Below, in pieces: positions 38,406-58,581 of a stretch of DNA of 64,000 nt. Numbering within the stretch: the first letter of the stretch is position 1; each line of letters starts with the position of its first letter. The position numbers and the translations under genes are program-made. The notes under the pieces are model-generated. The model saw only the letters and a list, made by a program, of their open reading frames with translations. It had not been told where the DNA came from and made no database searches. The stretch is from Flavivirga eckloniae. GTDB taxonomy: Bacteria; Bacteroidota; Bacteroidia; Flavobacteriales; Flavobacteriaceae. The stretch is from contig NZ_CP025791.1 in assembly GCF_002886045.1 (NCBI RefSeq), positions 1,634,001-1,698,000 on the forward strand, written 5' to 3'.

Positions 38406-38436
38406 CGAACATGAGTGTATCAAAACCGTACACACC
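38406..38436 (+). promoter_or_regulatory. Putative upstream activating site A
   Basis: The sequence CGAACATGAGTGTATC, then four variable bases and CCGTACACACC, contains a TGTA-N9-TACA inverted repeat (38416-38432). It agrees with 58489-58519 at 22 of the first 28 positions. It lies about 80 bp before the TGGCAC box at 38486. A NtrC-type dimer site is the natural reading. Confidence 0.65.
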
Positions 38437-38484
38437 CCTTACTCCACACAAACATAAACCGCTCAAAATAAACCATTTAGTGTT

Positions 38485-38501
38485 TTGGCACAGTTATCAC
38501 T
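38485..38501 (+). promoter_or_regulatory. Sigma-54-like promoter for the adaptor-ATPase-permease operon
   Basis: TTGGCAC at 38485-38491 is a good -24 element. At the -12 position the sequence is AC instead of GC, so the match is incomplete. It lies 42 bp before the adaptor start and about 80 bp after activating site A. Confidence 0.5.
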
Positions 38502-38528
38502 TATAACAGAATAATATAATTAGTATTT

Positions 38529-39779
38529 ATGGACATCCCAATAGAAAAGAAAAGATTTACCAAGTCGAAAATTGCAATGATTGCAGGCTCAATCTTATTA
38601 GTATCATTTATAATTTATGTAATAGCGTCTTCTGGCGGAAAATCAAAATTAAATGTAGACACCGAACGCATTATGGTGAGTATAGTTAAAGATGGTGTTT
38701 TTCAGGAGAATATTCCTGTAAGTGGTATTGTATTACCTATTACAACCATTTATTTGGATGCTCTTGAAGGTGGGCGTGTTGATGAAATATTTGTTGAAGA
38801 TGGTGCCATAATGAAACAAAATGACCCCATACTTCGTCTTTCTAATACAGATTTGGAGTTGAGTTTAGTAAATCAGGAAACATCGGTTTATAATTTGCTT
38901 ACTCAAATGCAAATTTCTCAAAACGCGGCAAGACAGAATACCATTAACAAATTAAACCAAATGACCGATGTTGAAAATGCCTTAATTGAAGCAACCAGAG
39001 TATTTAAACTCAATAAAAAGTTATATGAACAAAAAGCAATAGGTCGTAACGAATTTAAAGAGTCTGAAAACAATTATAATTATCAGAAACAACGTATGCA
39101 GTTGGCAGTACAAATATTGAAACAAGATTCTATATCTGTAAAACAGGAAAGTGCACAAGCTAATAGTTCTTTTTCCAGAACCCAAAGTGCCTTGAAACTC
39201 ATGCGGAAAAAAGTAGGCGATTTAGTGGTAAGAGCACCCGTAGATGGTCAATTAACTTCTTTAGATGCCGAAATCGGACAGTCAAAAAACAAAGGCGAAC
39301 GTTTGGGGCAATTGGATGTTTTAAGTGGTTTTAAAGTACGTGCAGATATTGACGAACATTATATTTCCAGAATTTATACTGGACAATATGGTTCTTTTCC
39401 TTTTAATGGCAAGGACTATAAATTAAAAATTAAAAAAGTTTACACCCAAGTCACCAATGGACGTTTCCAGGTGGATATGATTTTCGAGGAAACCATTCCT
39501 GAGGGCATTCGTAGAGGTCAATCATTACAAATTCGATTAGCTTTAAGCGACGAAAAACAAGCTTTGCTTGTTCCTAAGGGAGGTTTTTTTCAACAAACTG
39601 GTGGTAATTGGATTTTCAAATTAAGTGATGATAGTAAAACAGCTTATAAAGCAGATATCCAACTAGGCAGTAAGAATACAGAATATTATGAAGTGTTACA
39701 AGGGTTACAACCTGGAGATAAAGTAATAACTTCCAGCTATGATAACTTTGGAGATAAACAAGAATTGATATTAAAATAA
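38529..39779 (+). CDS. HlyD/MacA-type periplasmic adaptor (membrane fusion protein)
   Basis: A 416-residue adaptor with one N-terminal transmembrane helix (about 15-33). A split lipoyl-like domain follows (IYLDALEGGRVDEIFVEDGAIMKQNDPILRLSN at about 75-115, resumed by VVRAPVDGQLTSLDAEIGQ at about 235). A helical hairpin lies between the halves (about 115-230), then a beta-barrel and membrane-proximal domain. It links the inner-membrane permeases to the TolC-like channel encoded at 59308. It is the only adaptor for seven permeases. An unusually long 131-bp gap separates it from the ATPase gene. Confidence 0.88.
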   Translation: MDIPIEKKRFTKSKIAMIAGSILLVSFIIYVIASSGGKSKLNVDTERIMVSIVKDGVFQENIPVSGIVLPITTIYLDALEGGRVDEIFVEDGAIMKQNDPILRLSNTDLELSLVNQETSVYNLLTQMQISQNAARQNTINKLNQMTDVENALIEATRVFKLNKKLYEQKAIGRNEFKESENNYNYQKQRMQLAVQILKQDSISVKQESAQANSSFSRTQSALKLMRKKVGDLVVRAPVDGQLTSLDAEIGQSKNKGERLGQLDVLSGFKVRADIDEHYISRIYTGQYGSFPFNGKDYKLKIKKVYTQVTNGRFQVDMIFEETIPEGIRRGQSLQIRLALSDEKQALLVPKGGFFQQTGGNWIFKLSDDSKTAYKADIQLGSKNTEYYEVLQGLQPGDKVITSSYDNFGDKQELILK

Positions 39780-39863
39780 AACAATATTTCGCCATTATGG
39801 GGAGGTTACCAGAATGCACTGAGTGCTTTCGAAATGTGATAATCTAACAGAACTAAAAATAAA

Positions 39864-39896
39864 CAGATTGCCACGTCGTCCCTCCTCGCAATGACA
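39864..39896. repeat. Dispersed-repeat fragment between adaptor and ATPase genes
   Basis: CAGATTGCCACGTCGTCCC, followed by TCCTCGCAATGACA, resembles the CAGATTGCTTCGTCG...CGCAATGAC dispersed intergenic repeats I know from many Bacteroidota genomes. The preceding bases (39795-39845, with CACTGAGTGCTTTCGAAATGTG) look like another decayed repeat. The two fill an otherwise functionless gap within the operon. Confidence 0.5.
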
Positions 39897-39910: not shown

Positions 39911-40588
39911 ATGATCAAAATAACAGATTTAGAAAAGTATTATAAAACAGACGAATTACAAACCATAGCTTTAAACAAATTGTCTTTTGAAGTAAAAAAG
40001 GGAGAATTCGTAGCCATTATGGGACCATCGGGATGTGGTAAATCAACATTACTTAACATTATTGGCATGCTAGATAGTTCTGATGGCGGGAGCTTTATTT
40101 TTAATGATGAGGAAATCATTCATTACAATGAACGTAAACGTGCCAATATTCGTAAGCATAATATTGGTTTTGTATTCCAAAGTTTTAATTTGATTGACCA
40201 ACTTACTGTTTTTGAAAACGTAGAGTTACCCTTAATATATACCGGAGTTAGTAAAGCAGATAGAAAAAAGAAAGTACACGAGGTTTTAGAAAAAATGCAG
40301 ATTATGCATAGACGTAAACACTTTCCGCAACAGCTTTCTGGTGGACAGCAACAAAGGGTAGCCGTAGCTAGAGCTGTAGTAAACAATCCGAAACTTATTC
40401 TAGCCGATGAGCCCACAGGAAATCTGGATAGTAGCAATGGTAATGAAGTTATGGATTTATTAACTGAATTAAACGAACAAGGAACCACCATCATTATGGT
40501 AACACATAGTGAGCATGATGCTAAATTTTCGCATCGTATTATACGTATGTTGGATGGTCAGAAAGTGACTGAAAACAGTTTGATATAA
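39911..40588 (+). CDS. ABC transporter ATP-binding protein (MacB/LolD type), ATPase 1
   Basis: A 225-residue nucleotide-binding subunit. Walker A is GPSGCGKST (38-46), Q-loop VFQSFNLIDQ, signature LSGGQQQRVAVARA, Walker B LILADEP followed by the D-loop TGNLDSS, and the switch His in MVTHSE. All catalytic elements are intact. It starts 9 bp before the first permease gene and would power the MacB-like permeases that follow. Confidence 0.94.
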   Translation: MIKITDLEKYYKTDELQTIALNKLSFEVKKGEFVAIMGPSGCGKSTLLNIIGMLDSSDGGSFIFNDEEIIHYNERKRANIRKHNIGFVFQSFNLIDQLTVFENVELPLIYTGVSKADRKKKVHEVLEKMQIMHRRKHFPQQLSGGQQQRVAVARAVVNNPKLILADEPTGNLDSSNGNEVMDLLTELNEQGTTIIMVTHSEHDAKFSHRIIRMLDGQKVTENSLI

Positions 40589-40596: not shown

Positions 40597-42975
40597 ATGA
40601 TACGTAACTATTTCAAAATAGCGTGGCGGAACCTTATTAAGAACAAAGGGTATTCTCTAATCAATATCGGAGGCCTATCCATTGGTATGAGTTGTAGCAT
40701 TCTTATTTTTTTATGGGTTCAGGACGAAACGAGTTATGATAAATTTCACACCAACGCAAATCAAATTTGTAGACTTACGGTTGATGCAGGAAGTGGTGAT
40801 TTTAAAGCAGCAGTTAGTCCAGCTGGAATGGCATCTGGTCTTCAAGATGAAATCTCAGGAATAGAATCGACCGTGCGGATAAGTAAACCAATTACGTCTT
40901 TATTTGAAGCAAATGATCTTAAATTTGAGGAACAACGTGTTTTTTATGTTGATGCCAACTTTTTGGAGATGTTTGATTTTTCTTTACTTAAAGGTGATGT
41001 TAAAACCGCATTACAAAACCCTAATGGTATACTCATAACAGAGACCACTGCTATAAAATATTTTGGAAGCGAAGATGCTTTAGGGAAATTTATAAAGAAA
41101 GATAATAATGATGTCTTCACTATTACCGGAATACTAGCAGACACGCCCTCCAATTCTCACTTACAATTTGATATTATCTTACCCATGGCCTACTTAGCAA
41201 AAACAGACAGAGGCCTGATCAATAATACATGGAGTGATTTCAATTTTTATTCTTACATCCAATTTAATAAAGGTCATAATTTATCCTTTAAGGCACTCGT
41301 TGATCTTGAAGATAAAGTAAATCAAGTCTACGCTTCCAGAAGTCCCAAATTTCAACCTAAATTTAAGTTACAGCCTCTCACCGATATTCATTTGCATTCT
41401 TCTAATTTACAAATAGATCTTTCGGGTCATGGCAATATTCAATATGTAAATATTTTTATTATAATTGCCCTTATCGTTTTATTAGTAGCTTGTATTAATT
41501 TTATGAATCTTGCCACGGCTCAATCATCTCGAAGAGCTAAAGAAGTGGGGCTTCGAAAAGTAATTGGAGCCAAAAGAAATCAATTGATATTTCAATTTTT
41601 AAGTGAATCGATACTCATCTCATTTATTTCCTTATTCATTGCTATTTGTATTATATACTTAGTAATGCCTCTATTCAATAATTTGACTGAAAAACAGATT
41701 GTATTTCAATTGTTAGATAATAAAGTATGGTGGTTGTATTTAATTTTTATCGGAGCAATTACTGGTCTTATCTCAGGGAGCTACCCAGCATTATTCCTCT
41801 CCAGCTTTAAACCTATTAAAACAATTAAAGGGAGACTAGGATCTAATAATGAGAATTTGATATTTCGAAACGGATTGGTTATTACTCAATTTGTTGTTTC
41901 TGTTTTTCTTCTCGTAGGAACCGTTGTTGTATACAAACAGTTAAATTTTATAAAAGACAAAAATCTAGGATTTGATAAATCAAATCTTTTGTATGTCCCT
42001 GCAAAAGGTGAAATATATAATAAACGAGGTGCTTTAAAAACATTATTGCAACAAAACCCTCTTACCAGTAACTTCTCTATGGTATCCGATCTACCAACTA
42101 ATCTAATTTCGGGAGCTACTAATGTAAAATGGGAAGGGAAAGATCCTAATTCACTAATTGTGTTTCCTAGCATGTACATAGACGAGAATTTTACCGATGT
42201 TTTTCAAACGGAGATACTTCGTGGTCGTGGTTTTTCTGAAACATTTGGAACCGATGCGTCCAATTATGTTATCAATGAAAAAGCAATGGAAGTCATGGGT
42301 ATGAATTTAGAAACAGTTATTGGAAATACCATGACGTTTCAAAATAAAAAAGGAACTATTATTGGCGTTGTAAAAGATTTTAATTTTAAATCACTACAAT
42401 ATGCTATTGAACCTCTCGTATTACATTATACTAAAGAAAGCGAAATACTTGTAGTTCGCACACAGCCCGGAAAAACAGAAGCTACTATAAAAGCATTAAA
42501 AGAGATTTATGGCAACCTAAACCCTGCATTTCCTTTTGTATATAATTTTGTTGATAAGGATCTTGATAATCAATATCGTGGCGAGCAACGAATGGGCACT
42601 GTTTTTAACCTATTTGCTATTCTAGCCATTTTTATTTCCTGTATTGGTTTATATGGATTATCAGCATTTATTGCAGAACAACGTATTAAAGAAATTGGGA
42701 TACGAAAAGTTCTTGGAGCAAGTGTTTTTGGGTTAGTAAATATGCTTTCCAAAGACTTTTTTAAGCTTGTTTTAATTGCTTTGCTTATCGCTTCTCCAAT
42801 TGCATGGTATTTAATGGATATGTGGCTTCAGGATTTTGCTTTTCATATAGATATACATTGGTGGATGTTTGCGCTATCTGGTATGATAATAGTTGTTATA
42901 GCCTTAATTACTGTAAGTTTTCAAACTATTAAAGCTGCCATTGTTAACCCCATTAAAAGTTTACGAACCGAATAA
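40597..42975 (+). CDS. MacB/FtsX-type ABC permease 1
   Basis: A 792-residue permease. N-terminal helix (about 20-41) after MIRNYFKIAWRNLIKNKGYS; periplasmic MacB core domain 1 (about 45-275); FtsX bundle of three helices (about 280-305, 335-358, 378-400) with RAKEVGLRKVIGAKRNQL on the cytoplasmic side; a linker helix (about 425-447); periplasmic domain 2 (about 450-660); and a second FtsX bundle (IKEIGIRKVLGASVFG). It ends NPIKSLRTE. The duplicated FtsX layout is the Bacteroidota form that needs a separate ATPase. It is the first of seven tandem paralogues. Confidence 0.9.
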   Translation: MIRNYFKIAWRNLIKNKGYSLINIGGLSIGMSCSILIFLWVQDETSYDKFHTNANQICRLTVDAGSGDFKAAVSPAGMASGLQDEISGIESTVRISKPITSLFEANDLKFEEQRVFYVDANFLEMFDFSLLKGDVKTALQNPNGILITETTAIKYFGSEDALGKFIKKDNNDVFTITGILADTPSNSHLQFDIILPMAYLAKTDRGLINNTWSDFNFYSYIQFNKGHNLSFKALVDLEDKVNQVYASRSPKFQPKFKLQPLTDIHLHSSNLQIDLSGHGNIQYVNIFIIIALIVLLVACINFMNLATAQSSRRAKEVGLRKVIGAKRNQLIFQFLSESILISFISLFIAICIIYLVMPLFNNLTEKQIVFQLLDNKVWWLYLIFIGAITGLISGSYPALFLSSFKPIKTIKGRLGSNNENLIFRNGLVITQFVVSVFLLVGTVVVYKQLNFIKDKNLGFDKSNLLYVPAKGEIYNKRGALKTLLQQNPLTSNFSMVSDLPTNLISGATNVKWEGKDPNSLIVFPSMYIDENFTDVFQTEILRGRGFSETFGTDASNYVINEKAMEVMGMNLETVIGNTMTFQNKKGTIIGVVKDFNFKSLQYAIEPLVLHYTKESEILVVRTQPGKTEATIKALKEIYGNLNPAFPFVYNFVDKDLDNQYRGEQRMGTVFNLFAILAIFISCIGLYGLSAFIAEQRIKEIGIRKVLGASVFGLVNMLSKDFFKLVLIALLIASPIAWYLMDMWLQDFAFHIDIHWWMFALSGMIIVVIALITVSFQTIKAAIVNPIKSLRTE

Positions 42976-43030
42976 AACATCAATCAACAGACGCCGAAGC
43001 AAGTCTAGCATAAAAAAACAAACAGTTATG
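42973..43030 (+). repeat. Intercistronic spacer repeat, copy 1
   Basis: This spacer between permeases 1 and 2 aligns with those at 47833-47893 and 50834-50886 (ACGCCGAAGCAAGTCTAGCA against ACGCTGAAACAAGTTCAGTA). Here the small hairpin has lost base pairing. It is evidence that the gene units arose by tandem duplication including their spacers. Confidence 0.6.
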
Positions 43031-45457
43031 ATACGAAACTATTTAAAAATCGCATGGAGAAGCTTTATAAAGGACAAAAGCTTTTCTGCTATCAACTTAC
43101 TAGGGCTTGCAACTGGTTTTGCCATAGCTTTATTGATTATTCAATACGTTAGGTTCGAGCTTAGCTATGAGAATACGCATGAAAAGGCAAATAGAATTGT
43201 AAGGCTTACTTACGATATTATGGATGGAGAAACCATAAGTTCGCAAGACTGTGAAACAAACCCTCCTTTAGGAGCCAGGTTAAAAGCAGAATTAACAGAG
43301 GTCGAAAATTTTACCAGAGCCTATCAAATTGGAGAGCCCACTATAACTATAGAAGTTGATAATAAACCGTTCATTGTTGAAAAAACGTATGCTGCAGATC
43401 CTGCTTTCTTCGACGTATTCACATATCCTTTTTTGTACGGTAAAAAAGAAGATGCTTTTAGCAAACCCAATCAAGCTGTTTTAACAGAGACAGCAGCACT
43501 AAAATATTTTAATCGTAAAAATGTGATTGGAGAAACCATCACATTACCTGCATCAGGAATGGAAATTTTATTGGATGTAGTGGGAGTTATTCCAGACAGT
43601 CCAGCAAATACGCATTTAAAGTTTAATATGTTGATATCTTATGCCACTTTGCTAACAGACCCAATTATGCAAGCATTGTACGGTGAAACGGAGAATAATT
43701 GGAATGGAAACAACACATATACTTATGCTTTACTTGGTAAAAATGCGTCTTATGAAAGTTTTACAGATAAATTGGTAGGATTTAATAAACGCCTTAGGAA
43801 CGAAAAGAAAATGCTAACAGACCGTGTAATTGGTCAAAAAATAGAAGATATCCATCTATATTCCAATAAGCCTTTCGAGCCAGAACCAAACGGTAGCGCT
43901 TCAACCGTGTTCTTCTTATTAGGTGTCGCTTTTTTGGTTATTATTAGTGCTTTTGTTAATTATATTAATTTAACAACATCCAAGGCACTGGACAGAGCTA
44001 AAGAAGTAGGTGTTAGAAAAGTTGTAGGCTCCACTAAAAGTCAATTAAGAGTTCAGTTTTTAATAGAATCTTTATTAATGAACCTACTTGCTGGTTTATG
44101 TGCTTTAGTTATTATTTCCTTTGTTAAAGATCACTTCATTGAGATAGCAGGAGTTCCTGATAATTTTAACGTCTTTACAGATATGTTTTTCTGGGGTACT
44201 CTTGGCGTATTTTTAATTTTTGGAGTAACGTTTTCTGGCACATATCCTGCTTTACTGCTCTCTTCTTTTAAGCCTTCACTTATTTTAAAAGGCAAATTCT
44301 CACATTCGTTTAAAGGTGTTTTGTTACGTAAATCTTTGGTTGTATTTCAATTTACAGTTACCATAGTACTGTTAATTTTAGTATTTACTATTAAATCGCA
44401 ATTGAGTTTTTTAAGAACTATGGAGTTAGGTGTAGAGACAGATAATACGATAATAGTTAGAGCTCCTATACAAAATAATTCTGAACAACGATATAGTGTT
44501 TTTAAACAGAAATTATTGGCGAATTCCAGTATCATGAATGTTACTTTGTCTGGGGCTGTACCGGGAGAATTAGCAAGTCAAATGAGTACAACCGATGGTA
44601 TTAATCTTTCTGAATCTTCCGAGAAGCACAATCATAATTTTTACATCAATACCATTGATGAAAATTTTATCTCCGTAATGGGCATGCAGTTGTTAGCTGG
44701 GACAAATTTTGACGAGGCAAGCACTCCTGAAAAAAGAGAAGTTATCGTTAATGAAAAGGCTCTCAAGTTGTGGAATGTTCGGGATAATGCATCAGTCATT
44801 GGTAAAACAATAAAGATGTGGGATGCCGAGTGGTCTATCAAAGGCGTCCTTAAAGATTATCATCAAGAATCGGCAAAAACGCCATTCGTACCCATTATCC
44901 ATCGATTTTCGAACTCTTTTCATGGTTTAGCCAGTGTTAAGTTTCATCATGACAAACCGGAAAAACAGTTAGCCCAATTAGAAGAAATTTATAAATCGGT
45001 TTTTCCTGAAGCACCTTTTTCGTATTTTTTTATGGATACCGAATTTGATAAGCAATTTAAAGCAGACATCCGCTTTCAGTCCGTATTTAATATCCTTACT
45101 GGTTTTATCATATTAATTGCGTGTCTGGGCCTATTTGGCTTGGCATCTTTCACTGTTTTAAAACGTAAAAAAGAAATAGGAATTCGTAAAGTTGTTGGAG
45201 CAAGCATAGCAAATATCTTGGTACTACTATCAAAAAATTTCGTAAAAACAATTATGCTATCTATGCTTATTGGTACTCCCATAGCTTATCTACTGGCCAA
45301 TAATTGGCTTGAGAACTTTGCAACCAGAATACCCCTAAATATATGGTTATTTATGATCCCTTTATTACTAGTTATGGGGCTTGTTATTTTTTCAATTAGC
45401 GTAAAAACAGTTAATGCTGCTTTAGTAAATCCAGTGAATTCGCTTAAACAAGAATAA
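43028..45457 (+). CDS. MacB/FtsX-type ABC permease 2
   Basis: 809 residues from the ATG at 43028. The frame is open back to 42941, but that part overlaps permease 1, and the start MIRNYLKIAWRSFIKDKSFS matches the paralogues. Same eight-helix, two-periplasmic-domain layout; cytoplasmic motifs RAKEVGVRKVVGSTKSQL and KKEIGIRKVVGASIAN; end NPVNSLKQE. The first 30 bases are identical to the beginning of permease 3, showing recent common origin of at least the 5' ends. Confidence 0.9.
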   Translation: MIRNYLKIAWRSFIKDKSFSAINLLGLATGFAIALLIIQYVRFELSYENTHEKANRIVRLTYDIMDGETISSQDCETNPPLGARLKAELTEVENFTRAYQIGEPTITIEVDNKPFIVEKTYAADPAFFDVFTYPFLYGKKEDAFSKPNQAVLTETAALKYFNRKNVIGETITLPASGMEILLDVVGVIPDSPANTHLKFNMLISYATLLTDPIMQALYGETENNWNGNNTYTYALLGKNASYESFTDKLVGFNKRLRNEKKMLTDRVIGQKIEDIHLYSNKPFEPEPNGSASTVFFLLGVAFLVIISAFVNYINLTTSKALDRAKEVGVRKVVGSTKSQLRVQFLIESLLMNLLAGLCALVIISFVKDHFIEIAGVPDNFNVFTDMFFWGTLGVFLIFGVTFSGTYPALLLSSFKPSLILKGKFSHSFKGVLLRKSLVVFQFTVTIVLLILVFTIKSQLSFLRTMELGVETDNTIIVRAPIQNNSEQRYSVFKQKLLANSSIMNVTLSGAVPGELASQMSTTDGINLSESSEKHNHNFYINTIDENFISVMGMQLLAGTNFDEASTPEKREVIVNEKALKLWNVRDNASVIGKTIKMWDAEWSIKGVLKDYHQESAKTPFVPIIHRFSNSFHGLASVKFHHDKPEKQLAQLEEIYKSVFPEAPFSYFFMDTEFDKQFKADIRFQSVFNILTGFIILIACLGLFGLASFTVLKRKKEIGIRKVVGASIANILVLLSKNFVKTIMLSMLIGTPIAYLLANNWLENFATRIPLNIWLFMIPLLLVMGLVIFSISVKTVNAALVNPVNSLKQE

Positions 45458-45468
45458 AATACAAGAAT

Positions 45469-47835
45469 ATGATACGAAACTATTTAAAAATCGCATGGCG
45501 GAATTTGCAGCAACGAAAGGTGCATACAGCCATTAATATATTTGGGCTGACCATTGGTTTTGCTAGTAGTATGCTCATTTATCTTTTTATAAGTCATCAT
45601 TTATCTTTTGACACATTTCATTCTAATTCAGATAGTATTTACCGATTGAACACTGAAGAGCATATCAATCAGGTTTACCATACCGCTACAGTACCTCCAG
45701 GTTTTGCAAAAGTGTTTAGAGAAGAATTTACTTTTGCCGATAAAGTAGCCAAAATTGTAAAACAAGAAGAATTAATAATAGATATTGGCGATGTAAAGTT
45801 CAAGCAAGATATCTCTTTTGTAGAAGAAGATTTTTTTAAGATTTTCAATTTCCCATTAGTAAACGAAAATCGTAACGTATCTATTTCTAATCCTAATACA
45901 GCGCTTATAACAGAAAAAAAGGCATTGAGTTTATTTGGTAAAAAAGATGTTGTAGGAGAAACGTTTGTACTTGAAAATAATAAAACCGTAAAAATTACCG
46001 GAGTTTTAAAAGATCTACCTAAAGCCACATTTTTAGATACTGAAATCTTTATAGCCTTCCAGAATCTTAAAGATATTTCAAGGTTTGCATCATCAGAAGG
46101 TTGGAATGGTACTATGAGCAGTTTACAATGCTTTACACGCCTTAAACCCAATCAAAATATAGGAGCCATTGAAACCGCGCTTTTAGAGCTTCCTAAAAAA
46201 TACAGGCCAAAGGCCACAAACAGGCATGTTTACAAATTACAACCCTTGTCTAACATACATTTTAATAAAGATTACGGAGGACTTAACCCTAATTTCTTAA
46301 TCATTTTTGGCGCCATTGGTTTGTTTTTAATTGGTATAGCATCCATAAATTTCATCAATATCTCAACAGCTCAAGCCTTTTATCGTTCTAAAGAAATAGG
46401 CGTACGTAAAGTTTTAGGAGGGCTTAAACAACAATTATTCTGGCAGTTTTTAGTAGAAACCTTTTTAATTAGCCTGCTTGCTGCACTTTTGGGAACTTTA
46501 GTCACCGCATTGGCATTACCATATTTCAATAATTTATTTGACTTACAATTAACTTTTAAAAGTCTTTTTGATATTAAATTCTTTACTTTTTTCACTGTTT
46601 TGCTAAGTGTAGTATCATTTCTAGCAGGGAGTTACCCTGGGTTGTTAATTGCCCGTATTACCCCTGTATTAGCGCTAAAAGGAAAGTTGAATCATAATGA
46701 TGCGGGCGGTACTTCTACAAGAAAAATATTGGTAGTCACCCAATTTTCAATATCTATCATACTTATTGTAGCAACTCTGGTAATATCGAAACAAATTACC
46801 TATGCCATTAATGGTGAATTAGGCTTTGAGAAAGAGTCTATTGTCATGATGGATATTCCTCCTCATACAAAACACACCACACTAAATACTTTAAAAGAAC
46901 GCCTAAGTAATATTTCTGGTGTACAACAGATTTCTAACTGTTTTAGTAGTCCTGGCGGGGCAAAAAATGCTTGGGGATCCACATTTCAATATAATAACAA
47001 ATCAGAATCTGAAGAATTTCAGGTTTCAGTAAAAGCAGGAGATATAGATTTTATAAAACTATTTAATATTCCACTGGTTACTGGCCGTAGTTTCTTAAAA
47101 AATGATCAAACCACCGAGGTTATAGTTAACGAGAAATTTGTAGAAAAACTAGACGCTACTTCTGTTGAAGACGTTTTAGGGAAATCATTAGAATTACAAG
47201 GACATAAAACAACTATCGTAGGCGTATTTCGAAATTTTCATGATAGAAAATTCACAAAAGAAATAAATCCAATTGCAGTTATTCCTAATGCGGATTGGTA
47301 TAGAGAGATCGCTGTAAAAATAGATTATTCAAATGCAAAAACTGCATTGACACAAATTGATGAAATATGGTCCCAAACTTTTAATGATTACATTTTTGAT
47401 TATCGCTTTTTAGACGAACGCGTAGCAGAACAATATGAGTCTGAACAACGCTATCTTTTTCTTTCAAAATTATTTTCAGGGCTGGCTATTTTCATTGGGT
47501 GTTTAGGTATTTATGGCTTGATTCTCTTTTTTATAAATCAGCGCATTAAGGAAATAGGAATAAGAAAAGTATTAGGTAGCAATGTAAGGCACATTTTGGC
47601 TTTATTTTCCATAGATTTTGTAAAGCTCATTCTAATAGCCGGTATCATTTCTACTCCTATAGCCTGGTACATCATGGAACAATGGTTACAGGGTTATGTT
47701 TATAGAACCGACATTAAATGGTGGTATTTTGTAGTGGCCATCATGTTTACCTTAATAATAACTGTAATTACTATTAGCTATCAAACGGTTAGAGCTGCAT
47801 TAACGAACCCTATTAAAAGTTTACGAACGGAGTAA
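45469..47835 (+). CDS. MacB/FtsX-type ABC permease 3
   Basis: 788 residues, beginning MIRNYLKIAWRNLQQRKVHT and ending NPIKSLRTE, 11 bp after permease 2. FtsX cytoplasmic motifs are SKEIGVRKVLGGLKQQL and IKEIGIRKVLGSNVRH. Periplasmic domains at about 45-275 and 445-660 are divergent from those of its neighbours, whereas the membrane parts are conserved. If the permeases have different substrates or signals, they would be distinguished there. Confidence 0.9.
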   Translation: MIRNYLKIAWRNLQQRKVHTAINIFGLTIGFASSMLIYLFISHHLSFDTFHSNSDSIYRLNTEEHINQVYHTATVPPGFAKVFREEFTFADKVAKIVKQEELIIDIGDVKFKQDISFVEEDFFKIFNFPLVNENRNVSISNPNTALITEKKALSLFGKKDVVGETFVLENNKTVKITGVLKDLPKATFLDTEIFIAFQNLKDISRFASSEGWNGTMSSLQCFTRLKPNQNIGAIETALLELPKKYRPKATNRHVYKLQPLSNIHFNKDYGGLNPNFLIIFGAIGLFLIGIASINFINISTAQAFYRSKEIGVRKVLGGLKQQLFWQFLVETFLISLLAALLGTLVTALALPYFNNLFDLQLTFKSLFDIKFFTFFTVLLSVVSFLAGSYPGLLIARITPVLALKGKLNHNDAGGTSTRKILVVTQFSISIILIVATLVISKQITYAINGELGFEKESIVMMDIPPHTKHTTLNTLKERLSNISGVQQISNCFSSPGGAKNAWGSTFQYNNKSESEEFQVSVKAGDIDFIKLFNIPLVTGRSFLKNDQTTEVIVNEKFVEKLDATSVEDVLGKSLELQGHKTTIVGVFRNFHDRKFTKEINPIAVIPNADWYREIAVKIDYSNAKTALTQIDEIWSQTFNDYIFDYRFLDERVAEQYESEQRYLFLSKLFSGLAIFIGCLGIYGLILFFINQRIKEIGIRKVLGSNVRHILALFSIDFVKLILIAGIISTPIAWYIMEQWLQGYVYRTDIKWWYFVVAIMFTLIITVITISYQTVRAALTNPIKSLRTE

Positions 47836-47893
47836 AACATCATCAATCAATAGATACTGAAATAAATTCAGTACAAGAAAACGAACAACCATG
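47833..47893 (+). repeat. Intercistronic spacer repeat, copy 2, with hairpin
   Basis: It contains TACTGAA-ATAAA-TTCAGTA (47855-47873), a perfect 7-bp stem. It is homologous to the spacers at 42973 and 50834. It may stabilise mRNA segments or mark cleavage sites between cistrons. Confidence 0.65.
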
Positions 47894-48366: not shown

Positions 48367-48367
48367 T

Positions 48368-50836: not shown

Positions 50837-50886
50837 ATCATCAATATACGCTGAAACAAGTTCAGTACAAAAAACGAATAATCATG
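50834..50886 (+). repeat. Intercistronic spacer repeat, copy 3, with hairpin
   Basis: CTGAA-ACAAG-TTCAG (50851-50865) is a 5-bp stem in a spacer homologous to 42973 and 47833. The next spacer (53326-53346) keeps only the flanks (AATAAATC and AAAAACGAATAATC), as if the hairpin had been lost. Confidence 0.6.
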
Positions 50887-53325
50887 ATTAGAAACTATTT
50901 TAAAATCGCTTGGAGAAACCTCGTTAAAAACAGGGGATTCACATTCATCAATATTTTTGGATTAAGTATTGGTGTTGCAGCTTGTATCTTAATTTCGATT
51001 TACATTTCCCATGAAAGCAGTTACGATAAAGATGTATTAAACTCCGAAAACATATACAGAATAACCGGAACGTATATTGAAGACGGACGGTCTGAAACAG
51101 GAATTCATTGTTCTGCCAATACAGCCCGAACCATATTAGCAGATTTTGAAGAAGTTGAAAATTCTGGAAGACTAATGGCTAATGGGCTTTTTTACGGAGC
51201 TGGAAGTAATGATATACGCTTCGACGGCGAAGACACACAGCATTATGAAGAAGGATTTACTTATGCCGACCCTTCGATGATTGATATTATGGATATCCAA
51301 ATGGTTTTTGGAAATGCTAAAACTGCACTTTCAGAGCCAAAAACCATTGTTATTTCTGAAACTATGGCCAATAAATACTTTCAGGGTAGCAATCCGGTTG
51401 GGAGAGCCATGTATTTAAATGGAAATAATAAGGACCCATATAAGATTACAGGAGTTATGAAACCTTTTGCCAGTAACTCACATTTAAAATATGATTTTTT
51501 AATCACGTTATCGGGTGTAGAATTTGGAGAAGGCGAACAAAACAGATGGTTTCAAACTAATTACTTTACCTATCTCGTCTTAAAACCTGGTACAGATGTA
51601 GCAAATTTCGAAAAAAAGATGTCGAATAGGCTCATTCATAAATATATAAAACCGGCGCTCCTTTCTGCTGGTTTCTCTATGGGTGACACTTTGGAAGATA
51701 AACTCAGTATGTATTTACAACCCCTAACCCATATTAATTTACACTCTGCCCACATTAATTTTGAATCGAGCTCCAGAAACGACATAAAAATTATTTGGAT
51801 TTTTGGTATCGTGGCATTGTTTATCCTCGTTATTGCAAGTATTAACTTTATAAACCTTTCTACTGCTAAATCGGCCAATAGAGCTAAAGAAGTCGGGTTA
51901 AGAAAAGTAGTAGGTTCTACACGTACACAACTTATTGGCCAATTTTTAGCCGAATCCATACTCATTTCGCTAATCGCCTTTATTATAGGTACCGCCTTAT
52001 CTGTTGTTTTAATGCCGCTTTTTAGAAATATGTCGGGTATCGATTTGGTAATACCATGGTCTAGCTTTGGTTTTATGCCCTCTATTATTTTGTTTGCCCT
52101 TGCAGTTGGTGTATTAGCTGGACTTTACCCTTCCTTCTACCTTTCAAACTTTAATCCTATTAATGTGCTTAAAGGTAAACTTAGTTCTGGAAGTAAATCG
52201 AGCGGACTAAGAAGTAGCCTGGTTGTTTTTCAATTTACAATATCTATTATTTTAATTATTGGAACATTAATAGTAAACCAACAAATGAATTTTATTTTAA
52301 ACTCTAAAGTGGGGTTTGAAAAAGATCAGGTGGTTCAAATTTATAGTACCAATATACTCAATAACCGTGTTGAAACCTTTAAAGAAGAACTCAAAAAATT
52401 ACCAGGGGTAAACAATGTCTCTATTAGCGATTATTTACCTATTGAAGGTACCAAACGAAACGGAACCGGTTTTGTAAACGAGGATAAAGAAGGTATTGAT
52501 GAAACGGTTAGTGGGCAAGCCTGGGTTATCGATGAAGATTATCTGGAAACCCTGGGTATGAATTTAGTAGCAGGTCGCAACTTTATAGCTGGTCGAAGTT
52601 CTGATGAAAAAGCGATCATAATAAATCAAGCCATGGCTGAAGAATTGCGTTTAGAAGCCCCCATCGGGAAACGCATTTCCAGATATGATGATAGTGTTTC
52701 TTATGAAATTATTGGCGTAGTTGAAGATTTTAATTTTAATACGATGAAGGAAACCGTACAACCGCTTTGTCTTTTTACTGGTATTAGTCCTACCATTACT
52801 TCGGTTAAACTACGTACAACAGACGTAGCTACTACATTGGCATCTATAGAAGCTAAATGGAATGAATTTGTTCCTAATATGGCCTTTCGTTACGAGTTTA
52901 TGGATGCTTCTTTTGCAAAAATGTATAATAATGTAAGTAGAATAAAAGCCATTTTCACCTCCTTTGCCATACTGGCCATATTGGTAGCCTGTCTGGGATT
53001 ATTGGCGCTTTCGGCATACATGGTCGAGCAACGTAATAAAGAAATGAGCATTCGAAAAGTACTCGGAGCTTCGGTACAAACCATTTTTAAATTGCTCACA
53101 AAAAACTTTTTGGTTTTAGTTATAATAGCATTAATCGTAGCCATTCCTGTTTCTTATTATGTCATGCAAAACTGGTTACAAGACTATCAATACAGAATCG
53201 ATATGTCTTGGTCGGTATTTTTTGTTGCAGGTATTATAGCTGTTACTATTGCTTTAATAACAGTGAGCTTTCATGCTGTTAAATCTGCTTTAATTAATCC
53301 GGCGGAAAGCTTACGATCCGAATAA
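50884..53325 (+). CDS. MacB/FtsX-type ABC permease 5
   Basis: 813 residues, beginning MIRNYFKIAWRNLVKNRGFT and ending NPAESLRSE. Motifs RAKEVGLRKVVGSTRTQL and NKEMSIRKVLGASVQT are present. The usual eight helices and two periplasmic domains are seen. Its spacer and first codons are nearly identical to those of permease 6, the closest pair at the DNA level around the start codon. Confidence 0.9.
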   Translation: MIRNYFKIAWRNLVKNRGFTFINIFGLSIGVAACILISIYISHESSYDKDVLNSENIYRITGTYIEDGRSETGIHCSANTARTILADFEEVENSGRLMANGLFYGAGSNDIRFDGEDTQHYEEGFTYADPSMIDIMDIQMVFGNAKTALSEPKTIVISETMANKYFQGSNPVGRAMYLNGNNKDPYKITGVMKPFASNSHLKYDFLITLSGVEFGEGEQNRWFQTNYFTYLVLKPGTDVANFEKKMSNRLIHKYIKPALLSAGFSMGDTLEDKLSMYLQPLTHINLHSAHINFESSSRNDIKIIWIFGIVALFILVIASINFINLSTAKSANRAKEVGLRKVVGSTRTQLIGQFLAESILISLIAFIIGTALSVVLMPLFRNMSGIDLVIPWSSFGFMPSIILFALAVGVLAGLYPSFYLSNFNPINVLKGKLSSGSKSSGLRSSLVVFQFTISIILIIGTLIVNQQMNFILNSKVGFEKDQVVQIYSTNILNNRVETFKEELKKLPGVNNVSISDYLPIEGTKRNGTGFVNEDKEGIDETVSGQAWVIDEDYLETLGMNLVAGRNFIAGRSSDEKAIIINQAMAEELRLEAPIGKRISRYDDSVSYEIIGVVEDFNFNTMKETVQPLCLFTGISPTITSVKLRTTDVATTLASIEAKWNEFVPNMAFRYEFMDASFAKMYNNVSRIKAIFTSFAILAILVACLGLLALSAYMVEQRNKEMSIRKVLGASVQTIFKLLTKNFLVLVIIALIVAIPVSYYVMQNWLQDYQYRIDMSWSVFFVAGIIAVTIALITVSFHAVKSALINPAESLRSE

Positions 53326-53346
53326 ATCCAATAAAAACGAATAATC

Positions 53347-55737
53347 ATGATTAGAAACTATTTTAAAATCGCATGGCGAAACCTCATAAAAAATAAAGGT
53401 TTTTCTCTTATCAACATCGGTGGGCTTGCCTTAGGTATGGCCATTGTTATTCTTATTAGTTTATGGATACATGATGAGATTACTTTTAATCAAAATCATG
53501 AAAATCATGACCGCATTGCCCAGGTTTTAGTGCATAAAACAGCCAATGGAAAAAAAAGAACGCGTTATACAATGCCATACCCCATAGGCAACGAACTAAG
53601 AAATACGTATGTTGATGATTTCGAATATATTGTAATGAGTTCCTTCCATGGCGATAATATTTTGTCTTTTGGAGATAAAAATATTTCCAAATGGGGCGGA
53701 TTTATGGAGCCGGATGTTCTTAGAATGCTTTCGTTAAATATGATAAGTGGTAGCTTGGATGGATTAAAAACACCTAATTCTATTGTTATTTCAGAATCTA
53801 CTGCAAAAGTATTTTTTGGGGAACGCGACCCTATTGGCGAATTAATGACCATAAGCAATCAATTAAATGTACAGGTTACTGGTGTTTACCAAGACATTCC
53901 TTTTAATGCAAATTTTAATGAGCTTGAATTTATTGCTCCCTGGGATTTATATGCATCTTCCTTTGAATGGGTAAGGCACGCACGGGAAAATAATTTATGG
54001 GAGAATAGTTCCTATCAACTTTTTGTTCAAATTGCCGAGGGAACCACTATGAACGCGGTAAGCTCTAAAATTAAAAATGTAGTATACGATAATCTATCTG
54101 AATATAGTAAAAAAAGCCAACCGGAACTCTTTTTGTTTCCAATGAAAGATTGGCACTTACGATCTGATTGGAAAGACGGCATTAACGTTGGAGGATTTAT
54201 TCAATACGTATGGTTGTTTGGTATTATTGGTGCCTTTGTTCTATTACTGGCATGCATTAATTTTATGAATTTAAGCACCGCACAATCTCAAAAACGTGCT
54301 AAAGAAGTAGGTATTCTAAAATCGATTGGTTCTAATAAAAAACAGCTTATCAGTCAGTTTTTAAGCGAGTCGTTTTTGGTTGTCTTTATGGCTTTTTGTT
54401 TAGCTATATTGCTCGTTTTCTTAACCATACCGAGTTTTAATCAATTAGCAGACAAACAAATAGTATTTCCTTATTCGAGCATTTTCTTTTGGTTAGTAAG
54501 TGCTGGATTCATTATAATAACAGGTCTATTAGCCGGAAGCTATCCAGCCCTTTATTTATCATCATTTCAACCTGTAAAAGTTTTAAAAGGCTCCTTTAAA
54601 ACAAGTTATTCCGCTATATTTTCCAGAAAAACTCTGGTTGTTGTTCAATTTACGGTATCTATCATATTAATTGTTGGAACCCTAGTTATTGAAAAACAAA
54701 TTGATCATTCAAAAAACCGCCCTCTTGGATATGAAAAGAACGGATTGGTTATGATTGAAAAAGTTACCCAAGACTATGAAGGTAAATATAATGCACTTCG
54801 AAACGAACTTATAAGCAGTAATGCCGTGATAGAGATGTCTGAATCTTCAAGCCCATTAACGGGATCATGGAGCAGTAGCGGCGGTTTTGAATGGGCGGGA
54901 AAATCACCTGATTTTATTCCTAATATAAATACTATTTGTATTGGGCATGATTACGGTAAAACCATTAACTGGGAACTTGTTGAAGGACGCGACTTTTCCA
55001 GAGAGTTTTCAACAGATTCAACAGCTTTTATATTTAATGAAACTGCCATTAAATACATGGGAATCGAAAATGCTATTGGGAAAATTGTTAGATGGGGCAA
55101 TAAGGAACATAAAATTATTGGTGTTGTAAAAGACATTCTTTCCCAATCTCCTTTTGAGCCGGTGAAGCCATCTGTTTATATGATAAAATATACGAATACA
55201 AACTGGATAAACTTAAAATTAGATCCTGAAAAAAGTGCCGGAGCCTCTATAGCACTAATAGAAACCGTTCTAAAAAAACATGCTCCTAATGTACCTTTTG
55301 AATATCAATTCGTAGATGATGCCTTTGCCAAGAAATTTGTTGCTGTAGAGCGCATTAGAAAGTTATCTGCCATATTTGCCTTTTTCGCCATCTTTATAAG
55401 TTGTTTAGGGCTTTTTGGATTGGCTTCGTTTATGGCAGAACAGCGTACCAAAGAAATTGGTATTCGAAAAGTAATTGGTGCTTCTGTTTTTAATTTATGG
55501 CAGCTTCTATCTAAAGATTTTTTAAAACTGGTTATGATTTCTTGTGGTATCGCTATACCTATAGCTTATTATGCCATGTCTAACTGGTTAAACAATTACG
55601 AATACCAAACAAATATTTCCTGGTGGGTGTTTGCCATTGCTGGTATGGGAGCGCTCATAATTACAATATTAACAGTGAGTTTTCAAGCTATAAAAGCAGC
55701 AATTTCTAATCCCATAAAAAGTTTAAAAACAGAATAG
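53347..55737 (+). CDS. MacB/FtsX-type ABC permease 6
   Basis: 796 residues, beginning MIRNYFKIAWRNLIKNKGFS and ending NPIKSLKTE; 21 bp after permease 5. Motifs RAKEVGILKSIGSNKKQL (Arg replaced by Leu in the RK step) and TKEIGIRKVIGASVFN. Its first 80 residues are the best match in the window to permease fossil 1. Confidence 0.9.
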   Translation: MIRNYFKIAWRNLIKNKGFSLINIGGLALGMAIVILISLWIHDEITFNQNHENHDRIAQVLVHKTANGKKRTRYTMPYPIGNELRNTYVDDFEYIVMSSFHGDNILSFGDKNISKWGGFMEPDVLRMLSLNMISGSLDGLKTPNSIVISESTAKVFFGERDPIGELMTISNQLNVQVTGVYQDIPFNANFNELEFIAPWDLYASSFEWVRHARENNLWENSSYQLFVQIAEGTTMNAVSSKIKNVVYDNLSEYSKKSQPELFLFPMKDWHLRSDWKDGINVGGFIQYVWLFGIIGAFVLLLACINFMNLSTAQSQKRAKEVGILKSIGSNKKQLISQFLSESFLVVFMAFCLAILLVFLTIPSFNQLADKQIVFPYSSIFFWLVSAGFIIITGLLAGSYPALYLSSFQPVKVLKGSFKTSYSAIFSRKTLVVVQFTVSIILIVGTLVIEKQIDHSKNRPLGYEKNGLVMIEKVTQDYEGKYNALRNELISSNAVIEMSESSSPLTGSWSSSGGFEWAGKSPDFIPNINTICIGHDYGKTINWELVEGRDFSREFSTDSTAFIFNETAIKYMGIENAIGKIVRWGNKEHKIIGVVKDILSQSPFEPVKPSVYMIKYTNTNWINLKLDPEKSAGASIALIETVLKKHAPNVPFEYQFVDDAFAKKFVAVERIRKLSAIFAFFAIFISCLGLFGLASFMAEQRTKEIGIRKVIGASVFNLWQLLSKDFLKLVMISCGIAIPIAYYAMSNWLNNYEYQTNISWWVFAIAGMGALIITILTVSFQAIKAAISNPIKSLKTE

Positions 55738-55775
55738 AAGCCTAGAAGTAACCCCAATCATAAAAATTATCAATT

Positions 55776-58190
55776 ATGTTAAAAAACTATTTCAAAATCG
55801 CTTGGCGAAACCTTATTAAAGACAAAACATTTACCGTACTAAATATTACAGGTCTTTCAATAGCTTTTAGTGTGGCTATACTCCTGGCAATGGCTGGTTT
55901 TTTTGATTTATCGTATGATAAATTCCATGCAAACTTAGATAATCTTTACAAAGTATATTCCATTCAACAAACCCCAAAAGGTCCGGAAGCGAGTACAAGC
56001 CATCCTGCTCCTTTGTTAGAAGCCCTAAAAGCAGAAGTATTAGGTGTTGAAAAAGCATCCAGGTTTTTAGAAGATGAGGCCATTGTATCTTTTGGTGAAA
56101 AGGAAATCAATATGGATGCCGTATGGGTAGATCCTGATTTTTTCAGCATGTTTACCTTTCCAATACTTAAAGGGGAAATGAATAATCCTTTAGAAAAACG
56201 CTCATCTATTGTAATCACGGAAAGTAGTGCCAAAAAACTATTTGGTAGCTCAGATCCTATCGGGCAAACCGTTCAAATAATGATAAATGGTAAGGATCAA
56301 CCTTTTACCATAAATTCTATTGTGGCAGATAACCTACCACAAAGTACTTTAGAGTTTGAATTGGCTATTCCTTTTGAAAATGAGGCAGAATACCAATATA
56401 ACAAAGATGCCTGGGACTCTAGTTACCATAATGTTTATGTGCAGCTGGCCAATGGCGTTTTACCCGAACAGTTTGAAAAAGCGACCCGATCTCTTGTAGA
56501 TCGAAATCTTCTGGAACAAATTGAAAACGCTAAGCGAGATGGCGCTCAGACTAATACAGATGGACGGTTTTATAAATACAATATTTTACCTTTTATCGAT
56601 GTAAAATTTACCAAATTTAGAGATGGCTATGCCAAAGTAAGCAGAAGTACACCATACTTGGTTTTAGGCATTGCTTTTTTGATTCTATTTATTGCCTGTG
56701 TGAACTTTATTAACATGAGTATTGCAAAAAGCGGGCAACGCCTTAAGGAGATAGGCATGCGTAAAACATTGGGAGCAAAAAGAAAACAATTATTTCTTCA
56801 ATTTTGGAGTGAGAGTCTTTTTATTTTTACGATTTCTATTGTGCTAGGCTTGGTATTGAGTGTTTTATTAATTGATCAATTTAAAACCATTTTTAGAACG
56901 GCGGTGTCTTTTAATTTAGTAATGTCCCCTATAATTATCCTCTCCTTTTTTACTGCTGTTTTATTCATTACAATATTGGTAGGTGGTTACCCTGCGGTAT
57001 TGCTTAGTAGGTTAGGGACTATTCAATCCCTAAAAGGAAAACTCGATAATTCCGGAAAAAACAGGGTTCGGAATGTACTCATTATAACACAATTTAGCAT
57101 TGCAATTTTATTAATAAGTGGTACATTAGTACTAAGGGGGCAATTAGACTTTATGAGAAATAAAGATCTAGGTTTTAATAAAGAACAGGTACTTTCCTTT
57201 CCACTAGATGGAAAAAAAGATAGTTACAATGCGCTTGAGTTATTACGAAATGAACTAGCAGATAATCCTGATATTTTAAAAATAACGGGAGCAGACAATA
57301 ATTTAGGCCTTGGTAGAGACGGTAGTGCTTCTTCTAGCATATATGGCTTTGAATATAAGGGCAGGGGGATAAACACAAACTATTTAGTAGTAGACTATGA
57401 CTACGTTGAAACCTTAGACCTGGAAGTGATAAAAGGCAGAAACTTTAAAAGAGGTTTTGCCAATGATAGTTTAAGTGTAGTTATCAACGAAACAATGGCT
57501 AAAGAGTTTGGAGAAGAGAACCCTTTAACCGCCTATGTTAATGCCGAAGATAGTGTGAAATACCCAGTAATTGGAGTTGTAAAAGATTATCATTTTGAAA
57601 AATTAGACAAGTCTATCCAACCCATAACTATGTTTTTAAACAACAACGAGGATTTGTACTATGCTTATGTTAAAGTAACCCCTTATAACATGTCAAAATC
57701 TTATGATGCTATAGAAAAGGCTTGGGCCAAGATAGAGCCTAACGCTATCTTTTTAGGTTCTTTTTTGGATGAAAATATCAACAGGACTTTTAGAAAAGAG
57801 GAAAAGATGACCAAAATGATTACCACAGGGTCTATCATAGCTATAGTGTTAAGTTGCATTGGTCTTTTTGCTATTTCTTTATTAATCGTTGCCCAACGCA
57901 CCAAAGAAGTCGGGGTACGAAAAGTAATAGGTGCTAGTATAGCTAACATTACTTTTTTATTGACCAAAGATCTCTTAAAGTTAGTTGGTATTTCATTTTT
58001 AATAGCTACTCCTTTTGCTTGGTGGTTTATGAGGGAATGGTTGCAAAACTATCCTTTTAAAATCGACTTAAGTATATGGTTCTTTATAGCATCTGGACTA
58101 TTGGCTACTTTGATCGCTTTACTAACCGTAGGAGTTAGAACCTTAAAAGCTGCTGCTCAAAATCCAGCGAAAAGTTTAAAAACAGAATAG
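55776..58190 (+). CDS. MacB/FtsX-type ABC permease 7
   Basis: 804 residues, beginning MLKNYFKIAWRNLIKDKTFT and ending NPAKSLKTE. Motifs LKEIGMRKTLGAKRKQL and TKEVGVRKVIGASIAN. It is the last intact permease, 40 bp before permease fossil 2. Its first periplasmic domain (about 45-290) is the most distinct in sequence among the MIRN-type group. Confidence 0.9.
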   Translation: MLKNYFKIAWRNLIKDKTFTVLNITGLSIAFSVAILLAMAGFFDLSYDKFHANLDNLYKVYSIQQTPKGPEASTSHPAPLLEALKAEVLGVEKASRFLEDEAIVSFGEKEINMDAVWVDPDFFSMFTFPILKGEMNNPLEKRSSIVITESSAKKLFGSSDPIGQTVQIMINGKDQPFTINSIVADNLPQSTLEFELAIPFENEAEYQYNKDAWDSSYHNVYVQLANGVLPEQFEKATRSLVDRNLLEQIENAKRDGAQTNTDGRFYKYNILPFIDVKFTKFRDGYAKVSRSTPYLVLGIAFLILFIACVNFINMSIAKSGQRLKEIGMRKTLGAKRKQLFLQFWSESLFIFTISIVLGLVLSVLLIDQFKTIFRTAVSFNLVMSPIIILSFFTAVLFITILVGGYPAVLLSRLGTIQSLKGKLDNSGKNRVRNVLIITQFSIAILLISGTLVLRGQLDFMRNKDLGFNKEQVLSFPLDGKKDSYNALELLRNELADNPDILKITGADNNLGLGRDGSASSSIYGFEYKGRGINTNYLVVDYDYVETLDLEVIKGRNFKRGFANDSLSVVINETMAKEFGEENPLTAYVNAEDSVKYPVIGVVKDYHFEKLDKSIQPITMFLNNNEDLYYAYVKVTPYNMSKSYDAIEKAWAKIEPNAIFLGSFLDENINRTFRKEEKMTKMITTGSIIAIVLSCIGLFAISLLIVAQRTKEVGVRKVIGASIANITFLLTKDLLKLVGISFLIATPFAWWFMREWLQNYPFKIDLSIWFFIASGLLATLIALLTVGVRTLKAAAQNPAKSLKTE

Positions 58191-58230
58191 TAATTGAGGC
58201 GTACTTTATAAATTATAAAAATCATCAATT

Positions 58231-58448
58231 ATGTTCAAAAATCATTTAAAAATTGCTTTTAGATCTATTATAAGGCATAAAAAACATACGATAATCAACA
58301 TTTTTGGGTTGTCCATAGCCATGGCCAGTTTTATTTTTATTTTGTATTTGCAGGAGCGACTGCACTCTTTATCGCTTTCTTAACTGTTGGAGTCAAAATA
58401 TATAAAACCTCAACTACAAACCCAATAGAACACCTTAAGAATGAGTAG
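58231..58448 (+). pseudogene. Permease fossil 2: start and end of a permease gene joined, centre deleted
   Basis: 58231 onwards reads MFKNHLKIAFRSIIRHKKHT and then INIFGLSIAMASFIFILYLQ, a family N-terminus and first helix. At about 58350 it passes, in another frame, into AGATALFIAFLTVGVKIYK and TSTTNPIEHLKNE, a family C-terminus, ending at TAG 58446-58448. Around 730 codons are absent. The remnant peptide ends at 58383. This is the same type of event as in fossil 1 but involves a different parent gene. Confidence 0.87.
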
Positions 58449-58488
58449 ATATAAATTTTATAAGAACTATTTTTAAGTGTAATATTAT

Positions 58489-58519
58489 CGAACAGGATTG
58501 TATCGTTTCCGTACACCTA
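58489..58519 (+). promoter_or_regulatory. Putative upstream activating site B
   Basis: CGAACAGGATTGTATC, four variable bases, then CCGTACACCTA. It repeats site A (38406-38436) at 22 of 28 positions, including TGTATC and CCGTACAC and the TGTA-N9-TACA symmetry (58499-58515). It lies 78 bp before TGGCAT. Confidence 0.65.
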
Positions 58520-58565
58520 AAAAAAACAAAACCACATAACACCTTAACTTACAGCAAATTAAACA

Positions 58566-58581
58566 ATGGCATAGTATTGCA
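58566..58581 (+). promoter_or_regulatory. Sigma-54-like promoter for ATPase 2 and tolC
   Basis: ATGGCATAGTATTGCA has both -24 (TGGCA) and -12 (TTGCA) elements, but GG and GC are 9 bases apart instead of 10. It is 53 bp before the ATPase start. The match is suggestive, not proof. Confidence 0.45.

Follow-up and report, generated by a model that had tools for sequence, protein, structure and literature searches.

Sigma-54 promoters of the NtrC/glnA and NifA/nifH types are characterised by upstream dyads, an activator of the AAA+ class and a -24 box, with a site for IHF lying in between in the nif type. In systems of the BceRS-BceAB type, the neighbour of an FtsX-superfamily transporter is a kinase whose two membrane helices flank a short loop. 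Both are points of reference for an exporter locus of Flavivirga eckloniae, contained in a stretch of 64,000 nucleotides (contig NZ_CP025791.1, positions 1,634,001 to 1,698,000; hereafter the window), in which a kinase and an NtrC-type regulator adjoin a tripartite ABC exporter whose two gene units are each preceded by a promoter-like module. Judged from sequence comparison, the best explanation, and very likely the right one, is a sigma-54 activator regulon with an off-consensus, phase-locked promoter, in which the adjoining regulator would act at both modules.

The likeness to the NtrC/glnA and NifA/nifH types covers the upstream dyads, the AAA+ activator, the -24 box and perhaps, as in the nif type, an IHF site between them; the differences are the absence of G at -13, sites at a fixed short distance, and a permease-array exporter as the target. 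In its working the system resembles an NtrC-type sigma-54 regulon, except that GC at -13/-12, a feature by which such promoters are defined, was looked for and is lacking. As in the BceRS-BceAB type, an FtsX-superfamily transporter adjoins a kinase, predicted here to have a pair of membrane helices with little loop between them; unlike that type, the activator is here of the sigma-54 type, and the sensing mechanism is a predicted one. The darobactin exporter provides a third comparison, with DarB/DarC/DarD being the top NCBIfam match of the window's adaptor and both its ATPases, all below the curated equivalog cut-offs (adaptor 181.5 of 450, ATPase 1 303.5 of 375, and ATPase 2 246.3 of 375 bits). 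The first permease has ADOP (TIGR03434) as its top NCBIfam match, also below cut-off (161.4 of 700 bits). Unlike the darobactin exporter, the system described here has two ATPases, 1–11 permeases, its own channel and its own two-component system.

Sigma-54 control of COG0577 permeases was predicted in Bacteroidia and two other classes by a PLoS One survey of 2025, which in the portions available terms its prediction the first evidence for the FtsX-like family and already proposes, from promoter matrices, a sigma-54 link to ABC antimicrobial-peptide-type permeases in Bacteroidia (PMC12316311). For these permeases the same portions mention neither an activator nor an upstream site, and they give no promoter layout and no multi-promoter island. 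The main text of a 2011 survey contains no word beginning Bacteroid or Flavobacteri (PMC3162934), and a literature search with most subscription papers outside its reach did not turn up an account of this activator, of its sites, or of the island with its array.

Two proposed promoter modules at the exporter locus

A first-pass annotation of the window had pointed to a 28-bp motif shared by two noncoding regions, with a TGGCA box 78–80 bp downstream, and both statements hold on re-reading: CGAACATGAGTGTATCAAAACCGTACAC at 38406–38433 and CGAACAGGATTGTATCGTTTCCGTACAC at 58489–58516, both intergenic, are identical at 22 of 28 bases, and the TGGCA boxes begin at 38486 (80 bp after the motif start) and at 58567 (78 bp). 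The annotation had described one inverted core in the motif; the symmetry stands, but the sites are in tandem. Weight matrices from named relatives define the unit as a 17-bp dyad, TGTATC-N5-CGNACA, and the six leftmost bases of the 28-mer, CGAACA, belong to another, weaker dyad 21 bp upstream, of which they form the right half-site, the 28-mer being really one and a half copies of a tandem dyad. Both window promoters have such tandem dyads 21 bp apart (Table 1). The proposal of sigma-54-like boxes likewise survives in part: TGGCA is clear as a -24 element, but the -12 half lacks the canonical GC, reading TCAC in the first promoter and TGCA in the second where TTGC is expected. The adjoining gene, as annotated, does encode an NtrC-type protein with REC, sigma-54 AAA+ and Fis helix-turn-helix (HTH) domains. 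The genome has one RpoN, its single Sigma54_DBD protein, and four strong sigma-54 activators among 12 AAA+ matches.

Far from being scattered at random through the genome, an objection the annotation had itself raised, the core TGTATCNNNNCCGTACA occurs without mismatch at only two sites in the 5.67-Mb single-contig genome, and these are the two promoters. One mismatch adds four further sites, and at up to two mismatches there is no excess over the reversed control (57 vs 84), which leaves the exact core as the only distinctive form. When a loosely defined dyad is combined with TGGCA, the genome yields two matches, again the two promoters and none of the four one-mismatch core sites, against three in the reversed control; with one more base fixed the figures are two and zero. 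In 61 stretches from elsewhere in the same genome (244 kb), the module score, which combines both dyads and the core promoter, reaches at most 18.9 bits. The significance of the motif comes from its conservation in relatives.

Conservation and layout of the exporter islands

Two samples were compared. Among the best 80 of 558 regulator relatives, which by their names we take to cover Flavobacteriia, Chitinophagia and Cytophagia, the nearest orthologues are from Gaetbulibacter (82% identity) and Flaviramulus (81%). They divide into 61 named loci of higher identity (L049–L109; 57–82%) and another 19 (L110–L128; 52–56%), in which the layout is related yet different. In 50 of the 61, a dyad with up to two mismatches lies 64–74 or 86–96 bp upstream of TGGCAY, one of these (L071) probably being a chance match.

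The same 50 loci bear on the IHF-like box. The IHF consensus is WATCAANNNNTTR, and WATCARNNNNTTR is that consensus loosened by one letter after the column counts had been viewed. At 19 to 7 bp before TGGCA it is matched exactly in 8 of the 50 loci and with at most one mismatch in 22, never in more than 3 at any other of the 60 offsets tested. By eye, the box of the first window promoter has one mismatch, and that of the second has two, with its register shifted by one. The genome encodes two HU/IHF-family proteins.

The second sample consisted of whole genomes from the family, 249 in all. Of these, 30 have a regulator with 65% identity or more, including a fragment at a contig end, with the next ones at about 50%; adaptor orthologues at least 70% identical occur in exactly the other 29, the next best adaptor being at 39%. 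Up to 40 kb was fetched around each of the 29 complete loci (islands; 1.08 Mb in total), and these hold 47 dyads of at least 17 bits where Markov shuffles predict 0.55. The TGGCA box follows at a locked distance: among 45 dyad-TGGCA pairs within 160 bp, 34 are at 68–71 bp, 10 at 91–92 bp and one at 116 bp. Absence of the motif from related loci, the other objection anticipated by the annotation, is not what was found, as by combined score a module heads the adaptor unit in all 29 islands (49–88 bits, where 87 shuffled islands reach at most 17.3). Module and adaptor are separated by a TPR/DUF2268 gene in G082; exact TGGCA precedes the adaptor unit everywhere except in G024 (CGGCA) and G238 (a masked base); and G100 and G030, with degenerate tandem dyads, were missed by a single-dyad scan. 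Where both sites exceed 7 bits (26 of 38 island promoters; range searched 17–26 bp), their spacing is 22 bp (19 promoters) or 21 bp (7), and the sites are therefore about two helical turns apart in each promoter. Across the family, the dyad+TGGCA pattern has 62 matches in 50 of the 249 genomes, of which 32, cross-read by hand, lie at the exporter in 22 of the 30 regulator-bearing genomes.

The usual island has the kinase and regulator on one strand and, divergent from them, the adaptor, ATPase 1, 1–11 duplicated MacB/FtsX permeases, ATPase 2 and the outer-membrane channel. ATPase 2 was not seen in the four one-permease islands (G082, G238, G219 and G179), nor in G066, which ends with its contig, and the channel was not seen in G066 or G100. 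Permease number ranges from 1 to 11 per single adaptor across the 29 islands; ATPase 2 is present in all 24 complete islands with at least two permeases and in none of the four with one, as if the second ATPase came together with the permease array. In G225, where about 25 kb and a change of orientation separate the exporter module from the regulator, the module stays with the exporter, which disfavours its being merely the regulator's own site. Occasional extra island genes (L192, L194, L208, L209, L218, L225 and L226; ten ORFs tested) encode S41 peptidases, esterases, DUF2807 proteins, a TPR/DUF2268 protein, a PIN-domain protein and a DUF4440 protein, and the S41 peptidase gene of G195 has its own dyad and TGGCA.

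Another strong module, internal to the island, is found in 9 of the 29; internal modules were outside matrix training. It precedes ATPase 2 in the genome of the window and in G019, G017 and G207, the spacer sequence being divergent in the latter three, and a permease in G206, G148, G157, G195 and G138. G094 has a weak internal candidate (18 bits, inside the control range), and G125 an internal dyad without TGGCA.

The regulon proposed would operate as follows. The two motifs would serve the adjoining NtrC-type regulator as upstream activating sites. Its kinase would receive the signal; seemingly having no room for an extracytoplasmic sensor domain, it may monitor the membrane or the transporter. 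In the window kinase, a simple hydropathy scan finds two hydrophobic segments within residues 10–55 and a loop of 8 residues, and 26 of 30 kinases have at least two such segments in the first 81 residues (G143, G177, G195 and G066 show one), which suggests sensing in the membrane or via a partner, as in BceS-type kinases. The phosphorylated regulator would bind the two tandem dyads on the same face of the DNA, a protein of IHF/HU type would bend the DNA directly upstream of the -24 box, and the AAA+ ring would touch sigma-54 polymerase at TGGCA, 70 bp from the proximal dyad. Module 1 would start unit 1 (adaptor, ATPase 1 and permeases) and its copy unit 2 (ATPase 2 and outer-membrane channel), raising the whole tripartite exporter together despite the long intervening permease array. 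Joint switch-on of both units is proposed because the module is shared and recurs in other genomes, and one sensor-regulator pair very probably turns on the whole pump. That one pair serves both units had been the annotation's own interpretation, and it gains computational support from the 29 of 29 islands, the unique exact core and the locked TGGCA distance.

Core promoter, sister system and competing explanations

Several observations weigh against this regulon or its two-promoter form. At -13, the 38 island promoters have A in 23, C in 10, T in 5 and G in none, so the GC of the textbook -12 box is absent. The sigma-54 contact loop reads GAFTDA in 25 of the 29 island regulators and GAFTGA in 4, and together these leave two textbook signatures altered. 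Among the named loci L049–L109, 11 of 61 have no module at threshold: in five the fetched stretch contains no adaptor gene (L078, L084, L088, L092 and L101), L064 and L080 have dyads with CGGCA in place of TGGCA, L100 has tandem dyads 79 bp away, L089 and L105 have a different dyad, and L073 has nothing recognisable as a module. In the family survey, 30 of the 62 pattern matches are off the islands by hand count, against 11 for the reversed control; these vary in length (69–80 vs 73–76) and resemble coding sequence. Some genomes contributed both a training locus and an island (e.g. L050/G240). The second window promoter has its proximal dyad 68 bp from TGGCA and one of the two weakest cores, at 9 bits in one scoring and, in the island scoring, 11 bits, tied lowest with the second promoter of G017. 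Lastly, 20 of the 29 islands do without a strong internal module, even G144 with 11 permeases, the longest array, so that a second promoter cannot be a requirement; nor is a link of internal modules to array length significant (p = 0.06), though islands with such modules tend to have more permeases.

The last two points are also what would be expected if only the first module worked as a promoter, the second being decaying or dispensable here and unit 2 being mainly read through from the permease array, a reading helped by the position of the second module directly after a broken permease remnant. We consider it unlikely, as the dyads, TGGCA and gene start of the second module are all in place, and modules before ATPase 2 occur in G019, G017 and G207 too, with divergent spacers.

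The missing -13 G is not a product of the core score, because sets picked without that score also lack it (0 of 50 named loci; 0 of 37 dyad+TGGCA promoters). Together with the GAFTDA loop, it would suit a promoter in which the dyads bind the regulator but a housekeeping sigma factor transcribes, TGGCA being some other conserved element. The same promoters have T at -15 in all 38 and C at -12 in 29, and with TGGCAY these keep the GG-N10-xC register. Evidence on the loop from elsewhere points both ways: in the accessible part of a Dickeya study, no RpoN came down with a GAFTDA protein in a pull-down, and the authors do not decide the matter (PMC10714721), whereas the part seen of a Desulfovibrio study counts GAFTDA among the variants expected to keep activity and includes DVU2106, which has GAFTDA and listed targets (PMC4641369). 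A sister system of the same architecture has G at -13, and on balance transcription by a housekeeping sigma factor appears very unlikely.

This sister system, with a regulator 47–50% and an adaptor 32–37% identical to those of the system described here, was recognised at 14 of 40 sister adaptors fetched from 60 lower-scoring adaptor matches; the other 26 lack one ahead of that gene, and none is seen in the 900 bp before the closer sister adaptors L260–L279 (38–40% identical). Its dyad, TGTTCG-N4-CGAACA, is in tandem, 22 bp apart in 13 of 14 loci, and lies 78–80 and 100–102 bp from TGGCA or TGGTA, about one helical turn further upstream. G occupies -13 in 14 of 15 counted boxes, the fifteenth being a second TGGCA in L283 (Fisher p = 6e-12 against the own system). 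The sister promoters also fixed the register, upon which a -24/-12 spacing shorter by one base was dropped. Six of the 14 promoter-bearing sister loci (L281, L285, L286, L287, L289 and L290) have a hydrophobic 21-codon ORF between the sigma-54-like promoter and the adaptor, in L287 with an earlier ATG in frame, and its product could be an exported peptide.

Two causes for the missing -13 G are disfavoured by the sister system. GAFTDA is one, as 10 of 14 sister regulators also have it; a changed RpoN is the other, as G082, G240 and G059 carry both promoter kinds, G082 having the sister system back to back. The RpoN helix bearing residues R383 and E378 has reportedly been linked to -13. In the RpoN of F. 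eckloniae, by alignment, the R383 equivalent is kept and that of E378 is V; for Klebsiella sigma-54, the accessible part of one study has both residues crosslinking promoter DNA, R383 only in the presence of polymerase (PMC5505868).

The two regulator families have almost the same recognition helices, so cross-binding is possible, and the dyads could be operators of a repressor or of the sister regulator in place of the adjoining one. The upstream dyads of some internal modules (several among G148, G157, G195, G138 and G207) resemble the sister dyad by eye, and these may be points of cross-regulation. Another regulator at the dyads is nonetheless most improbable: the module accompanies the orthologue of the adjoining regulator in all 29 islands, and 25 of the 29 genomes show no second regulator at E <= 1e-120 (six candidates per genome scored).

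A possible promoter code can be set out: TGTATC-N5-CGNACA vs TGTTCG-N4-CGAACA in the sister, dyads at 70/92 vs about 80/102 bp, and A, C or T vs G at -13. Weak -12 regions of nif promoters are said to prevent cross-activation. We tentatively suggest, as a possibility short of an even chance, that dyad spacing, distance to -24 and the -13 base separate two paralogous sigma-54 activator-exporter systems, the off-consensus -13 being a built-in weakness that would make the promoter rely entirely on its own enhancer and shut out other activators.

Locus content and biological meaning

All parts of a tripartite exporter of MacAB-TolC type are present in the window: an HlyD adaptor, ABC ATPases, MacB_PCD/FtsX permeases and an OEP channel (Table 1). 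Permease assignments rest on Pfam matches for the genes starting at 40597, 48368 and 55776, with an NCBIfam match also for 45469; those at 42941, 50884 and 53347 were identified only as phmmer queries matching permease ORFs of relatives.

Table 1. Features of the exporter locus, in window coordinates
Feature	Position	Strand	Evidence
Sensor histidine kinase	35620..36987	-	Hydropathy: segments 10-28 and 37-55, short loop
NtrC-type response regulator, proposed activator (REC, sigma-54 AAA+ with GAFTDA, Fis HTH)	36977..38323	-	Domain matches
Distal (weak) dyad, first promoter, TGTTTTAATACCGAACA	38395..38411	+	12.5 bits; 21 bp upstream of proximal; tandem in relatives
Proximal dyad, putative upstream activating site, first promoter, TGTATCAAAACCGTACA	38416..38432	+	26.8 bits; exact core unique to two sites; module in 29/29 islands
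IHF-like box AATAAACCATTTA, putative function	38467..38479	+	1 mismatch to WATCARNNNNTTR (by eye); offset enriched in 50 named relatives
-24 box TGGCAC and off-consensus -12 box TCAC, first promoter; predicted start near 38512	38486..38500	+	Sequence, locked distance
HlyD-type periplasmic adaptor, first gene of unit 1	38529..39779	+	Domain match
ABC ATPase 1	39911..40588	+	Domain and NCBIfam matches
Seven intact MacB/FtsX-type permease genes (792, 838, 788, 822, 813, 796, 804 aa)	40597..58190	+	ORFs
Distal (weak) dyad, second promoter	58478..58494	+	9.9 bits; 21 bp from proximal dyad
Proximal dyad, second promoter, TGTATCGTTTCCGTACA	58499..58515	+	22.7 bits; counterparts before ATPase 2 in G019, G017, G207
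-24 box TGGCAT and -12 region TGCA, second promoter; predicted start near 58593	58567..58581	+	Sequence; weak core
ABC ATPase 2, first gene of unit 2	58621..59283	+	Domain and NCBIfam matches
TolC-type outer-membrane channel, second gene of unit 2	59308..60729	+	Domain and NCBIfam matches

Two permease-gene remnants were seen by eye, at 47891–48184 and 58231–58448, each an N-terminal piece beside a short C-terminal-like piece, and the array seems to lose members through internal deletion. A small charged ORF of 52 codons (48208–48366, by eye) lies between two permease genes. Beside the kinase, on the minus strand at 28976–35397, are genes for an MFS transporter, two MR/MLE enolase-superfamily proteins, a PfkB kinase, a KDPG-type aldolase and an SGL protein, which together probably form an operon for sugar-acid catabolism.

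Through these findings, a little-studied class of Bacteroidota exporter gains a concrete candidate activator, together with its putative binding site and a promoter layout, and with them a handle for finding the inducing signal and the substrate of the exporter. They also offer a natural experiment on sigma-54 specificity, in the form of two paralogous regulons, side by side in some genomes, whose differences are the base at -13, one helical turn of distance and a single base in the dyad spacing.

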